Position numbers and translations under genes: made by a program
The notes under the pieces: generated by a model
Database searches by the model: none
The model's input: only the letters and a program-made list of their open reading frames with translations
What the model was told of the DNA's origin: nothing
Shown: positions 31,523-35,913 of the stretch, in pieces
Numbering within the stretch: the first letter of the stretch is position 1
How the letters are laid out: every line of letters starts with the position of its first letter
Assembly (NCBI GenBank): GCA_013202295.1
Contig: JABMRT010000193.1
Location: 1 to 35,913 of the forward strand
Source of the DNA: Candidatus Zhuqueibacterota bacterium
GTDB lineage: Bacteria; Zhuqueibacterota; QNDG01; JABMRT01
Direction: 5' to 3'
Length of the DNA: 35,913 bases

Positions 31523-32424
31523 AAATTATTCTGGTATTTGTGGATGGATTGGGCCTTGGTACATCAAATCCGGATATAAATCCCTGTGTTCAGAACGATC
31601 TGCTCCATCTGGCCTGCTATCTGGATAACAACGCTTTTATCAAATCAGACACTGAATCGGAACTGATCGCGGTCGACGCAACACTGGGCATTCCCGGCTT
31701 GCCACAAAGCGCCACCGGTCAGGTGGCAGTGCTGACAGGCCAAAACGCATCCAGGATTTTAGGACGGCATTTGTTTGGATTTCCAAATCAGCCACTTCGG
31801 GATATTCTCAAAACACACTCGATTCTAAAAACTGTAAAGGAAAATGGAGGGACTTGCGATTTTCTGAATGCTTTCCGCGATCCCTTTTTTGACCTGCCGG
31901 AAACGACCAAATGGCGGCTATCCGCAACCACGTGCGCAACCTTGGCCGCCGGCCTGGATTTTCATCGACCTGAGGATATCGCACAATCCAAATCAATCTA
32001 TCATGATATCACCGGTGATTTTTTGAGGGAAAAGGGATTCGACATTCCCATCCTGTCTTTAGAGGAAGCGGGAAAAATCGTCGCCCGCCAATCCTGCTCA
32101 TTCGATTTGCTCTTGTTCGAATACTTCATGACAGATCGGGTGGGGCACAAACAGGATCTGAATCAAGCCAAACAAGAAATTCAAAAGCTGGATACCTTTA
32201 TAAATAGCATTCTGTCTGAAGTGAATCTCTTAGACACATTGGTTATTGTAACAAGTGACCATGGCAACATCGAGGATCTTTCCACAAAAAGCCACACCCG
32301 AAATCCGGCCATGACACTTGCCTGGGGGCTGAAGAAAATGGACCTTGCGCAACAAATTAGCGATCTGACCCATGTGACTCCCGCACTACTGAACCTTTTG
32401 GAAATTCATGACCAGACTCCATAG
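31519..32424 (+). CDS. Alkaline-phosphatase-superfamily metalloenzyme, phosphomutase-like
   Basis: A 301-aa enzyme with the metal site of cofactor-independent phosphoglycerate mutase/phosphopentomutase relatives: D9 (VFVDGLG), nucleophile S64 (QSATGQ, aligning with SxVGH of iPGM), D206 and H210 (TDRVGHKQD), D247 and H248 (VTSDHGNIED), H259 (KSHTRNP). All expected ligands are present, so it should be active. It is much shorter than iPGM (over 500 aa) and lacks its large transferase insertion; residues 70-200 form a different, smaller cap. Substrate unknown; phosphatase, phosphodiesterase or mutase all possible. The ATG overlaps the era stop by 4 bases, and its end overlaps the TtcA-like gene by 17 bases. 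Confidence 0.85.
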   Translation: MKIILVFVDGLGLGTSNPDINPCVQNDLLHLACYLDNNAFIKSDTESELIAVDATLGIPGLPQSATGQVAVLTGQNASRILGRHLFGFPNQPLRDILKTHSILKTVKENGGTCDFLNAFRDPFFDLPETTKWRLSATTCATLAAGLDFHRPEDIAQSKSIYHDITGDFLREKGFDIPILSLEEAGKIVARQSCSFDLLLFEYFMTDRVGHKQDLNQAKQEIQKLDTFINSILSEVNLLDTLVIVTSDHGNIEDLSTKSHTRNPAMTLAWGLKKMDLAQQISDLTHVTPALLNLLEIHDQTP

Positions 32425-33229
32425 AAAAATCAGAACGCTGACTGAAAAGGCCATCCTGGATTATGGAATGATCAATCCGGGTGATCGCGTACTCATCGGC
32501 ATCTCCGGGGGCGCGGACAGTATGAGCCTGCTCAAAATTCTACAAGATGGATTGGTTCAGTTCAAACACCCATTCACCTTGATCGCAGCACATATCGATC
32601 TTGGATTTGATGAGTCTTCACCCCGCAATTCTGAACGGTTAGCTGAATATTTTAAAGAGTTGGGGATCGATTACGAAATCGAACATACACAAATCAGTAA
32701 ACTGGCATTTGATCCCGATACACGGAAGAATCCATGTTTTATTTGCTCTCATCATCGCCGGAAAAATATATATGAAATCGCGCATCGGAACCGATGCACT
32801 ACAATTGCTTACGGGCATCATAAAGATGACATCATTGAAACCTTGCTGATGAATATCCTGTATGGCCGGACGATCGGTTCAATGAATCCCGTTCAGGAGG
32901 TATTTGAAGGATCAAAACACATCATTCGACCGTTCGCATATGTCGATGAAGGATTGCTTAAATCATTCAGCAGGGAATCTGGTTTCCCGTCTCTGACGAA
33001 GCTCTGCCCGGCAGAGGGAAATACAAGTAGACAACAGATTAAAGATCTGATACGACAATTACAGAAAAATGAAAAACATGCGAACATCCGTGAGAATATA
33101 TTTAAATCACACTATTGCGTAAACATTGACTTTAAACCGAAACAATCCCGGCAGGAGAAAATAAAACTTGATTTTATCCGGCAATATCTCTTATCTTGGT
33201 TGAAGGGTAAAAAAGAGATAAATAGATGA
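32408..33229 (+). CDS. TtcA-like tRNA sulfur transferase (PP-loop, Fe-S)
   Basis: A 273-aa PP-loop ATP pyrophosphatase of the TtcA/TtuA branch, predicted to thiolate tRNA, by family precedent cytidine 32 in TtcA. ATP loop GISGGADS (31-38); CxxC C110-C113 in NPCFICSHHRRKN; GHHKDDIIETLLMN (136-149); third cysteine C200 in LCPAEG, the likely third ligand of an Fe-S cluster as in TtcA. Shorter than E. coli TtcA (311 aa) but complete in motifs. It overlaps the upstream gene by 17 bases and has only a weak Shine-Dalgarno, so coupled translation is likely. The C-terminus is very basic (LSWLKGKKEINR), fitting RNA contact. Confidence 0.9.
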   Translation: MTRLHRKIRTLTEKAILDYGMINPGDRVLIGISGGADSMSLLKILQDGLVQFKHPFTLIAAHIDLGFDESSPRNSERLAEYFKELGIDYEIEHTQISKLAFDPDTRKNPCFICSHHRRKNIYEIAHRNRCTTIAYGHHKDDIIETLLMNILYGRTIGSMNPVQEVFEGSKHIIRPFAYVDEGLLKSFSRESGFPSLTKLCPAEGNTSRQQIKDLIRQLQKNEKHANIRENIFKSHYCVNIDFKPKQSRQEKIKLDFIRQYLLSWLKGKKEINR

Positions 33230-33245
33230 GCGATTTGGAGACTTA

Positions 33246-33809
33246 ATGGATATTGCAGTACATGTTGAGCGAGTCACATTAGACACATCCAGCAACCGCT
33301 TTGTCGTCATCCTTCGGGATGAAAAAAACAACCGTTGGCTCCCTATAGTTGTGGGGCCGGCAGAAGCCCAGGCCATTGCACTTCAAATGGAACAAGTCAC
33401 ACCGCCGCGCCCCATGACGCACGATTTAATTAAGAATGTTCTGGAGGCGTTAAAGGTTAAGATCGCCAAGGTGGTCGTGAATGATTTAAAGGACAACACT
33501 TATTTCGCAACGATTGATTTCAAAGACAATGGTTCAAATCAGGAAATTGACGCAAGACCCAGTGATGCGATCGCCATTGCGTTGAGAACGGACGCTCCCA
33601 TATTTGTTGATGAAAAAGTCATGAAAAAAGCGGCTATTTCAGAGGAAATGGAAAGTGTAGAACCGGAAATGAATGAGGAAGAACTGAAGACACTTCGGGT
33701 GGAGCTGCAACGCGCTGTGAAAGAAGAGCGCTATGAAGACGCAGCGAATTTCCGCGATAAAATTAACGATCTCCTTAAAAAATTGAAAAAGAAGAACCCT
33801 TCCAACTAA
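33246..33809 (+). CDS. Bifunctional nuclease (BFN/DUF151) domain protein with UVR motif
   Basis: A 187-aa protein. Residues 1-135 are a DUF151/BFN domain (VERVTLDTSSNRFVVILRDE, LPIVVGPAEAQAIALQM, RPSDAIAIALRTDAPIFV); plant members show DNase and RNase activity, the bacterial role being unclear. Residues 145-178 form a UvrB/UvrC (UVR) motif, ELKTLRVELQRAVKEERYED followed by AANFRDKINDL, a protein-interaction helical hairpin. GGAG lies 5 bases before the ATG, 16 bases after the TtcA-like gene. Last gene of the operon starting at 28992. Confidence 0.93.
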   Translation: MDIAVHVERVTLDTSSNRFVVILRDEKNNRWLPIVVGPAEAQAIALQMEQVTPPRPMTHDLIKNVLEALKVKIAKVVVNDLKDNTYFATIDFKDNGSNQEIDARPSDAIAIALRTDAPIFVDEKVMKKAAISEEMESVEPEMNEEELKTLRVELQRAVKEERYEDAANFRDKINDLLKKLKKKNPSN

Positions 33810-33861: not shown

Positions 33862-33890
33862 TTGACATTTCTTTTGTATTTATTTAATTT
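33862..33890 (+). promoter_or_regulatory. Sigma-70-type promoter of the rrf2-metY-cysK operon
   Basis: Perfect TTGACA (33862-33867), 17 bases, TAATTT (33885-33890). Expected start near 33897, inside the palindrome at 33891-33907. The leader before TTG 33927 would be about 30 bases. Confidence 0.7.
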
Positions 33891-33907
33891 ATGACTAAGT
33901 TAATCAT
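33891..33907 (+). promoter_or_regulatory. 17-bp palindromic operator, probably bound by the Rrf2 regulator
   Basis: ATGACTAAGTTAATCAT, symmetric at 7 of 8 pairs around a central G, sits directly after the -10 hexamer across the predicted transcription start. Rrf2 dimers bind such AT-rich palindromes. No second copy is seen in the window. The factor is inferred from adjacency. Confidence 0.55.
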
Positions 33908-33926
33908 ATTTATAAAGGTTTTAATT

Positions 33927-34382
33927 TTGAAAATAACTTTTAAAGGCGATTACGCGCTTAAAGCCATTCTGGATCTGTCTATGAATTCACAAAATGACGA
34001 AATCGTACCGCTTTCGATTATCTCGCGAAGGCAAGACATTCCCTTGCCTTTTCTCGAGCAGATCATGTTGAGTCTGAAGAAGGCCGGTTATGTCCATAGC
34101 CGGGCTGGCAAGGGCGGCGGCTTTTTTTTGGCGAAACGACCCGAGAACATCACATTAGGCGAAATAATCCGATTAATCGAAGGTCCCATTGAACCGATTT
34201 CCTGCGGCGTTAAGAATCAGCCATCCGGGTGCGCCGAGGAGGGACGCTGTGCATTTAGGGAGGTTTGGGTGCAAGTGACCGAAGTAATTTCCGATATCGT
34301 AGATACGGTCACTTTCGACCAAATCATGGTTCGTACACGCGAATTACAGGAACAACGAACAGAATACTCCTATCACATATAG
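33927..34382 (+). CDS. Rrf2 family transcriptional regulator (IscR/CymR-like)
   Basis: A 151-aa winged helix-turn-helix regulator. MKITFKGDYALKAILDLS is the classic N-terminus; the recognition helix region is LPFLEQIMLSLKKAGYVHSR, followed by wing GKGGGFFLAKRPENITLGEI. Three cysteines, C93, C102 and C108 (C-x8-C-x5-C), lie where IscR and NsrR hold their Fe-S cluster, so cluster sensing is plausible; B. subtilis CymR lacks these. TTG 33927 was chosen: AAAGG lies 8 bases upstream, the family N-terminus starts exactly here, and the longer ORF from 33891 would translate the operator. It lies 21 bases before a metY-like gene, pointing to control of cysteine/methionine supply, as CymR does. Confidence 0.93.
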   Translation: MKITFKGDYALKAILDLSMNSQNDEIVPLSIISRRQDIPLPFLEQIMLSLKKAGYVHSRAGKGGGFFLAKRPENITLGEIIRLIEGPIEPISCGVKNQPSGCAEEGRCAFREVWVQVTEVISDIVDTVTFDQIMVRTRELQEQRTEYSYHI

Positions 34383-34403: not shown

Positions 34404-35693
34404 ATGTCCAAGACATACTCATTCGAAACCTTGGCCCTTCACGGTGGGCAGACAGTCGATTCAGAAACCCTCTCAAGAGGTGTGCCGGTTCACAGAACAA
34501 GCTCATATCTTTTTAAAGACACAGAACATGCAGCCAATCTTTTCGCATTAAAGGAATTGGGTAATATCTATACACGACTCATGAATCCCACTCATGATGT
34601 ACTTGAAAAAAGAGTTTCACTTCTGGAAGGCGGAGCAGCTTCTGTGGCCTTGGCATCCGGAACAGCAGCAATTTTCAATACGATCATCAACCTGGCATCA
34701 GCGGGAGATGAAATCGTTTCGGCCAACAATCTGTACGGCGGCTCCTACACCATGTTCGATGCCATTCTTCCCCAATTTGGCATCACTGTGAAATTTGTCA
34801 ATCCTGGTGATCCGAAATATTTTGAGAAAGCAATTACGGAAAAAACCCGCGCCGTTTATATTGAAACCATTGGAAATCCGGTGTTGGATTTTACTGATGT
34901 CGAAGCAGTGGCAAAAATTGCGCACAACCACGGATTACCACTGGTCGTGGATTCAACATTTACCACGCCCTATCTTATGCGTCCGATTGATCATGGAGCG
35001 GATATTGTGATCAACTCTTTGACAAAATGGCTCGGAGGTCATGGAACGGCCATCGGCGGTATCGTGACGGATTCAGGAAAATTTAACTGGAAAGATAGTA
35101 AATTCGACCTTTATAACGAACCAGATCCAAATTACCATGGATTAAGGTGGGCCCATGATCTGCCTGAGGCACTCGCCTCCATCGCGTTTGCACTGCGACT
35201 GCGTACGGTTCCATTGAGGAATCTGGGTGCCTGTATGTCTCCGGATAATGCGTGGATATTTCTTCAGGGGATCGAGACCTTGCCGCTGCGCATGGAGAGG
35301 CACTGCAGCAATGCCCTGGCTGTTGTAGAACATCTGGCGAAACATCCAAAAGTAGATTGGGTACGGTATCCAGGTCTAAAGGGCGATCCCGCCTATCCCG
35401 TGGCCAGTAAATATTTAACCAAAGGTTTTGGAGGCATGGTCGTCTTTGGTATCAAGGGAGGAAAGGCAGCCGGGGAAAAGTTCATTAACAACCTGACACT
35501 GATCTCGCATCTGGCCAATGTCGGTGATGCGAAAAGTCTTGCTCTCCACCCGGCAAGCACATCCCACTCCCAGCTCTCGGAAGAACAGCAACGCGAAAGT
35601 GGACTCACACCCGAACTCATCCGGCTTTCGATTGGTTTGGAACATGTAAATGACATTCTCGCAGACATCGATCAAGCGCTGTCCAAGGCATAA
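34404..35693 (+). CDS. O-acetylhomoserine/O-acetylserine sulfhydrylase (MetY-like, PLP)
   Basis: A 429-aa PLP enzyme of the Cys/Met metabolism fold-I family, predicted to add sulfide to O-acetylhomoserine giving homocysteine, possibly also to O-acetylserine. Cofactor lysine K208 lies in NSLTKWLGGHGTAIGG. Other markers: FETLALHGGQ at the N-terminus, YTRLMNPTHDVLEKRVSLLE, SGTAAIFNTIINLASAGDEI, VVDSTFTTPYLMRPIDHGAD and HPASTSHSQL near the C-terminus. Length matches MetY (about 430) rather than MetB (about 380). AAGGAG precedes the ATG. A cysK-like gene follows after 24 bases, both under the Rrf2 regulator. Confidence 0.95.
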   Translation: MSKTYSFETLALHGGQTVDSETLSRGVPVHRTSSYLFKDTEHAANLFALKELGNIYTRLMNPTHDVLEKRVSLLEGGAASVALASGTAAIFNTIINLASAGDEIVSANNLYGGSYTMFDAILPQFGITVKFVNPGDPKYFEKAITEKTRAVYIETIGNPVLDFTDVEAVAKIAHNHGLPLVVDSTFTTPYLMRPIDHGADIVINSLTKWLGGHGTAIGGIVTDSGKFNWKDSKFDLYNEPDPNYHGLRWAHDLPEALASIAFALRLRTVPLRNLGACMSPDNAWIFLQGIETLPLRMERHCSNALAVVEHLAKHPKVDWVRYPGLKGDPAYPVASKYLTKGFGGMVVFGIKGGKAAGEKFINNLTLISHLANVGDAKSLALHPASTSHSQLSEEQQRESGLTPELIRLSIGLEHVNDILADIDQALSKA

Positions 35694-35717: not shown

Positions 35718-35913
35718 ATGAGCCGACTCTTTAATAATATGGTAGAAACCATCGGGCACACACCCATGGTACGCATTAATAAAATAAATGAAGGATTGCC
35801 GGGCCAGGTGCTGGCGAAATTGGAATCTTTCAATCCGCTGGGTAGCGTTAAAGAGCGCATTGCGGCCGCCATGATTGAGGCTGGTGAAAAATCGGGACAG
35901 ATCAATTCAGATA
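35718..35913 (+). CDS. cysK: Cysteine synthase, N-terminal part (cut by window end)
   Basis: The first 65 codons of a fold-II PLP enzyme forming cysteine from O-acetylserine and sulfide. ETIGHTPMVRINKIN and LAKLESFNPLGSVKERIAAA are the conserved start of CysK/CysM; K45 is the Schiff-base lysine (K42 in E. coli CysK). The reading frame is open to the last base. AAGGAGAAGGA lies before the ATG. CysK and CysM/CBS cannot be separated without the C-terminal part. Confidence 0.93.
   Translation, partial: MSRLFNNMVETIGHTPMVRINKINEGLPGQVLAKLESFNPLGSVKERIAAAMIEAGEKSGQINSD

Follow-up and report, generated by a model that had tools for sequence, protein, structure and literature searches.

A Tyr-x-Ile-tailed Rrf2 regulator behind a conserved putative operator upstream of metY and cysK: a probable CymR-like autorepressor

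The window, by which we mean the whole stretch of 35,913 nucleotides analysed here, is a complete contig (C178). Near its end it carries, on one strand, a gene for a predicted Rrf2-superfamily repressor with its promoter region, followed by metY and by the beginning of cysK. The features are the following.

33862..33867, + strand: -35 box TTGACA, read from the sequence; a -35-like box lies 28-29 nt from the operator in seven of eight genomes, the window included
33885..33890, + strand: -10 box TAATTT, read from the sequence and abutting the operator; a -10-like hexamer is at the same place in all eight genomes
33891..33907, + strand: putative operator ATGACTAAGTTAATCAT, over the expected transcription start; based on seven relatives and a de novo motif with the same core
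33915..33919, + strand: AAAGG, likely ribosome-binding site, read from the sequence and placed to within 1-2 bases
33927..34382, + strand: predicted Rrf2-superfamily repressor, 151 aa, TTG start (PF02082, TIGR00738; Asp8, Cys93, Cys102, Cys108; C-terminus EYSYHI)
34404..35693, + strand: metY, O-acetylhomoserine/O-acetylserine sulfhydrylase (TIGR01326 over cut-off)
35718..35913, + strand: cysK, 5' part, broken by the contig end; the rest is on contig C10, - strand

The regulator and metY are separated by 21 bp, and metY and cysK by 24 bp. Apart from one mismatch, the last 45 bases of the window (35869-35913) are those of the reversed start of C10; in other words, cysK is split by an assembly break inside the operon. 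Assuming this join, and with all names except cysK and cysE assigned by reading the sequences, the genes that come next on this strand are metX, metW, a receptor gene, iscS (cysteine desulfurase), nadA, mnmA, a thioredoxin-like gene, a rhodanese gene and cysE. Relatives repeat the order rrf2-metY-cysK-metX-metW. The operon is as much one of homocysteine and methionine (metY, metX, metW) as of cysteine; its cysK is the sole cysteine synthase found in the genome, and the genome's own CysE has no C-terminal Ile. The sulfhydrylase and cysteine synthase genes that a sequence-only reading of this DNA had named downstream of the regulator are confirmed as metY, by TIGR01326, and as the start of cysK. 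On the other side, a bifunctional nuclease domain (PF02577) fused to a UVR motif (33246-33809) lies directly 5' of the promoter region, and a PP-loop (TtcA-like) tRNA sulfur-transfer gene (32408-33229) lies just 5' of the operon region; with mnmA and iscS downstream, sulfur-relay genes are found around the operon.

In the window sequence, the -35 and -10 boxes are 17 bases apart, seven of the eight arm pairs of ATGACTAAGTTAATCAT match, and the TTG start at 33927 lies 19 bases past the palindrome, with AAAGG just 5' of it. On inspection of the sequence, promoter, palindrome and TTG are exactly where the sequence-only reading had put them, and its choice of start codon is borne out by the relatives, where the corresponding codon is ATG or TTG and opens a conserved N-terminus (MKITFKGDYALK-like). 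An in-frame ATG at 33891 was rejected as the start of the regulator, being inside the operator, with the relatives starting at the TTG codon. The TTGACA/TAATTT promoter was absent from the output of a simple promoter scanner, and Rfam returned no match, neither a riboswitch nor another known RNA. The intergenic stretch (117 bases) is 79% AT, and a 17-bp palindrome with at most one mismatch occurs in 19% of its dinucleotide shuffles (P about 0.19), so that the palindrome alone proves nothing.

A closely similar site lies directly 3' of a -10-like hexamer in seven relatives (L058, L059, L060, L061, L063, L064 and L066; regulator identity 51-72%), and in six of these a -35-like box stands 28-29 bases away from it. 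Over the eight genomes, the columns of the site carry 1.45 bits of information on average, as against 0.63-0.74 in the flanks. The palindrome is thus kept in related genomes, at the same place against the -10. A matrix built from these eight sites scored the upstream regions of distant clade members no better than those of unlinked Rrf2 genes; the ATGAC...GTCAT matrix, being equal to these controls, was rejected as a cross-phylum motif, and a de novo motif took its place. Namely, a de novo palindrome search over 20 distant clade upstream regions gave CTCTACTAAGTTAATAGAG-like sites, many of which abut a TATAAT-like hexamer, with a score of 277 as against 176-201 in 12 resampled sets. To judge from these sites, the core ACTAAGTTAAT and its position are kept across the clade, while the outer arms vary. 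The site is very probably a real operator, because the seven relatives and the cross-phylum set keep both core and position. Its GACT-N5-AGTC-like layout resembles that of IscR type 1 sites.

As for its reach, the genome holds no other match to TATGACTAAGTTAATCATA (at most three mismatches) or to the degenerate pattern ATKACHANNNNRRTCATRWW, and a wider regulon was rejected, since degenerate patterns returned, in this genome and eight relatives, the rrf2 upstream site plus scattered looser matches, mostly within long reading frames. A genome-wide search for the palindrome recovers the site upstream of rrf2 and no second intergenic copy, so that control looks local, by an autoregulatory operator.

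The regulator passes the Rrf2 superfamily cut-offs (PF02082, 123.5 bits vs 30; TIGR00738, 116.5 vs 73.3) and stays below the equivalog cut-offs of both CymR (NF047409, 90.8 bits vs 195) and IscR (TIGR02010, 100.6 vs 207.55). In the tree it falls outside Firmicute CymR, in a clade of its own that comprises 33 rows with support 99/93, and is therefore a member of neither CymR nor IscR. It does have a C-terminal Ile tail of the CymR type, and iscS lies several genes downstream, past metX, metW, the receptor gene and the contig join, with no isc or suf gene adjacent. The AlphaFold2 model has a pLDDT of 87, with the Cys loop and the exposed tail at low confidence, as might be expected of a cluster-ordered loop and a free tail; the best matches of this model among solved structures are B. 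subtilis CymR (2y75, the best) and T. potens IscR, and they confirm the family only. Our best model is that the regulator would work like CymR, yet the Rrf2 clade that it is part of is a separate one without a name. The genomes in which this clade is found are assigned to about ten phyla, and most are draft MAGs, whose phylum names and gene neighbours may carry binning errors. A description of it was not found in the open-access literature, and an earlier report elsewhere is possible.

Some related genes may be mentioned in passing. The genome has just one further Rrf2 protein that exceeds the PF02082 cut-off (L057; genome G000, C10:86094-86486, - strand), which is without the Tyr-x-Ile tail and lies near genes resembling an NrfH-type cytochrome and a Crp/Fnr regulator; it is perhaps a nitrite or NO regulator. 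On one WOR-1 contig (L039) and one Omnitrophota contig (L045), the same regulator type as in the window precedes hemA/hemC-like genes, perhaps a link to siroheme and sulfite reduction. Finally, a tail-less sister group with four cysteines (L070-L074) lies by ABC-transporter-like genes, perhaps for sulfate or thiosulfate, with an operator-like CCTATCAAATTGATAGAC upstream, and may be a further sulfur regulator whose sensor is of another kind.

The regulator ends in EYSYHI, that is, in Tyr-x-Ile. Across the aligned clade members, a variable linker precedes this end, in which Tyr149 and Ile151 show conservation of 90% or more. We compared 77 sampled Rrf2 proteins with their gene neighbourhoods, scoring the tail as [YFW]-x-I. 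It is present in 30 of the 31 proteins linked to cysK, metY or metX as against 2 of the 46 others (Fisher p 7e-18, in a test that ignores the relatedness of the proteins), and in none of the five iscS-linked proteins sampled. Both unlinked tailed proteins fall in the window clade, and the contig of one of them (L034) stops soon after the gene; the sulfur-linked protein without the tail is L048. Across this sample, the trait that tracks cysK/metY linkage is the C-terminal tail and not the three cysteines, which are common to most sampled Rrf2 proteins and, being so general, no marker of the window clade. The association is confounded by common descent, because most tailed proteins make up one clade and only L075 and a Firmicute group are separate. 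When the tree is built with the last eight residues left out, the tail needs four changes and occurs in three separated lineages, namely the window clade, Firmicute CymR together with T. potens IscR, and the protein L075, which adjoins cysK and is 35% identical.

Tails of this kind have a known partner. A C-terminal Ile drives docking into CysK, as established for CysE and CdiA (PMC12895370, PMC4961446), and CymR is listed among the proteins with a CysK-docking C-terminal motif (PMC12895370). The hold of B. subtilis CymR on DNA is stabilised by CysK, an effect that O-acetylserine relieves (PMC3828012, PMC2940859). The PDB sequences of S. aureus CymR (3t8r) and its Listeria homologue (3lwf) end in YMFYI, and that of T. 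potens IscR (4cic) in YMYYI; our B. subtilis CymR query matches 2y75 exactly over residues 2-128, a span outside which the tail lies. T. potens IscR is tailed, yet its role in the literature is Fe-S sensing, so that the tail alone is no proof of a cysteine-only role. Order-level relatives have CysE without the Ile. In three clade-bearing genomes (G019, G047, G058) CysE also ends in Ile, so that CysK would have two partners there; since these CysE proteins keep the Ile, the idea that it strictly moved from CysE to the regulator was rejected. In G001, CysE is without the Ile although the genome has no window-type regulator.

Four sulfur-linked members of the clade (L064, L066, L068 and L130) have no cysteine in the cluster region and keep both tail and operon. 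Asp stands at position 8 in all 29 three-cysteine members, and the residues there in the four others are D, E, E and Y. The [4Fe-4S] cluster of NsrR takes its fourth ligand, Asp8, from the other subunit (PMC5411485), and the [4Fe-4S] repressor RisR has C92/C102/C108 (PMC9973013). The window protein has the NsrR-type ligand set (Asp8, C93, C102, C108) and likely carries an Fe-S cluster; a second input of this kind is plausible, since none of the 29 three-cysteine members of the clade is without Asp8. To judge from the four cysteine-less proteins, the cluster is not a constant part of the system across the clade. The sequence-only reading had proposed an autoregulatory operator tying cysteine genes to Fe-S status through the three cysteines. 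Its operator and the control of cysteine genes are well supported by conservation, and its cluster is made plausible by Asp8; as an account of sensing it is incomplete, since it is the tail that tracks the sulfur genes and four relatives lack the cysteines.

With the CymR-CysK system of B. subtilis and S. aureus, the locus shares the Rrf2 fold, a Y-x-I-like tail, the predicted control of cysteine genes and the inclusion of CysK in the regulated set; its own CysE is without the terminal Ile, as is reported of B. subtilis CysE, which is also reported not to enter the canonical complex (PMC12895370). Unlike CymR, to which it is about 30% identical, the regulator belongs to a separate clade, appears to serve a local operon instead of a global regulon, has a different operator, and has three cysteines and Asp8, which are absent from CymR. 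IscR (T. potens, E. coli) resembles it in the Rrf2 fold and the three cysteines, and in T. potens also in the YMYYI end; the regulator differs in having no close isc/suf linkage and in residue 8, which is Asp, not Arg/His. Finally, three cysteines and Asp8 are as in ScNsrR, and the cysteine numbering is near that of RisR, whereas the lack of adjoining NO-detoxification or suf genes, the Cys-x8-Cys-x5-Cys spacing and the CymR-like tail set it apart from both.

Taking the operator conservation, the operon, the association of tail and sulfur genes and the conserved ligand set as our basis, we infer DNA binding, CysK binding, the effector, the cluster and the direction of the response along the following lines. 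The regulator is probably an autorepressor of the CymR kind, for which CysK would serve as both corepressor and sensor, in the manner of B. subtilis CymR, with a probable Fe-S input besides. Namely, an Rrf2 dimer on ATGACTAAGTTAATCAT, over the -10/+1 region, would block rrf2-metY-cysK and, past the contig join, metX-metW. With cysteine plentiful and O-acetylserine low, the C-terminal Ile (YHI) would occupy the active site of CysK, and repressor and enzyme together would hold the DNA; with cysteine falling, O-acetylserine would displace the tail and the operon would open. CysK being a product of the same operon, this would close a feedback loop. An NsrR-like [4Fe-4S] cluster, held by Cys93, Cys102 and Cys108 together with the partner's Asp8, would probably modulate DNA binding as a second, dispensable input.

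Could the regulator instead be an Fe-S sensor only, of the IscR/RisR kind, with the holo-[4Fe-4S] form repressing the operon, cysteine supply tracking Fe-S status and the tail used otherwise? The three cysteines with Asp8 in 29 of the 33 clade members, the precedent of RisR (C92/C102/C108; PMC9973013), the presence of iscS and mnmA further along the same strand, and the fact that neither of the genome's two PF02082 matches over the cut-off is an iscS-linked Rrf2 would all fit. However, four sulfur-linked members without cluster-region cysteines keep tail and operon, all five iscS-linked proteins sampled are tail-less, and a near-invariant Tyr-x-Ile end after a variable linker is left unexplained, so that we consider this reading unlikely.

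A thiol or persulfide switch in the apo-protein, in which the cysteines would sense sulfide or oxidants and hold no cluster, seems to us more doubtful still: sulfide is used by both metY and cysK, and oxidation-sensing S. aureus CymR loses DNA binding on thiol oxidation (PMC9338935), but that protein has no cysteine at these positions, and the joint conservation of three cysteines and Asp8 fits cluster ligation better. Finally, the promoter might be constitutive or activator-controlled and the palindrome an AT-rich coincidence, as the shuffles that yield an equally good one would allow; since eight genomes conserve its sequence and position, and a further 20 upstream regions yield a significant motif, this is highly improbable. 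The CymR-like autorepressor is therefore the reading that we prefer.

A more specific version of it, which we offer tentatively, is that the clade's repressor joins two sensors, a CysK-docking tail for cysteine and O-acetylserine and an NsrR-like [4Fe-4S] site for Fe-S, iron or oxidant, such that synthesis of cysteine and homocysteine would be repressed only if both signals agree, some lineages having lost the cluster and kept the CysK arm. The CymR-CysK system is already known in Bacillus, and our reading would extend it to a separate protein group in many poorly studied bacteria. If that reading is true, control of the CymR-CysK type, in which a repressor senses a substrate by way of the enzyme that uses it, would be no Firmicute speciality, but would also be found in a separate Rrf2 lineage across many uncultured groups. 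A Tyr-x-Ile end beside cysK or metY would then be a simple sequence mark by which to name genes now called generically 'Rrf2 family', and the members with and without cluster ligands would form a natural series for probing the coupling of cysteine supply and Fe-S demand in one protein.
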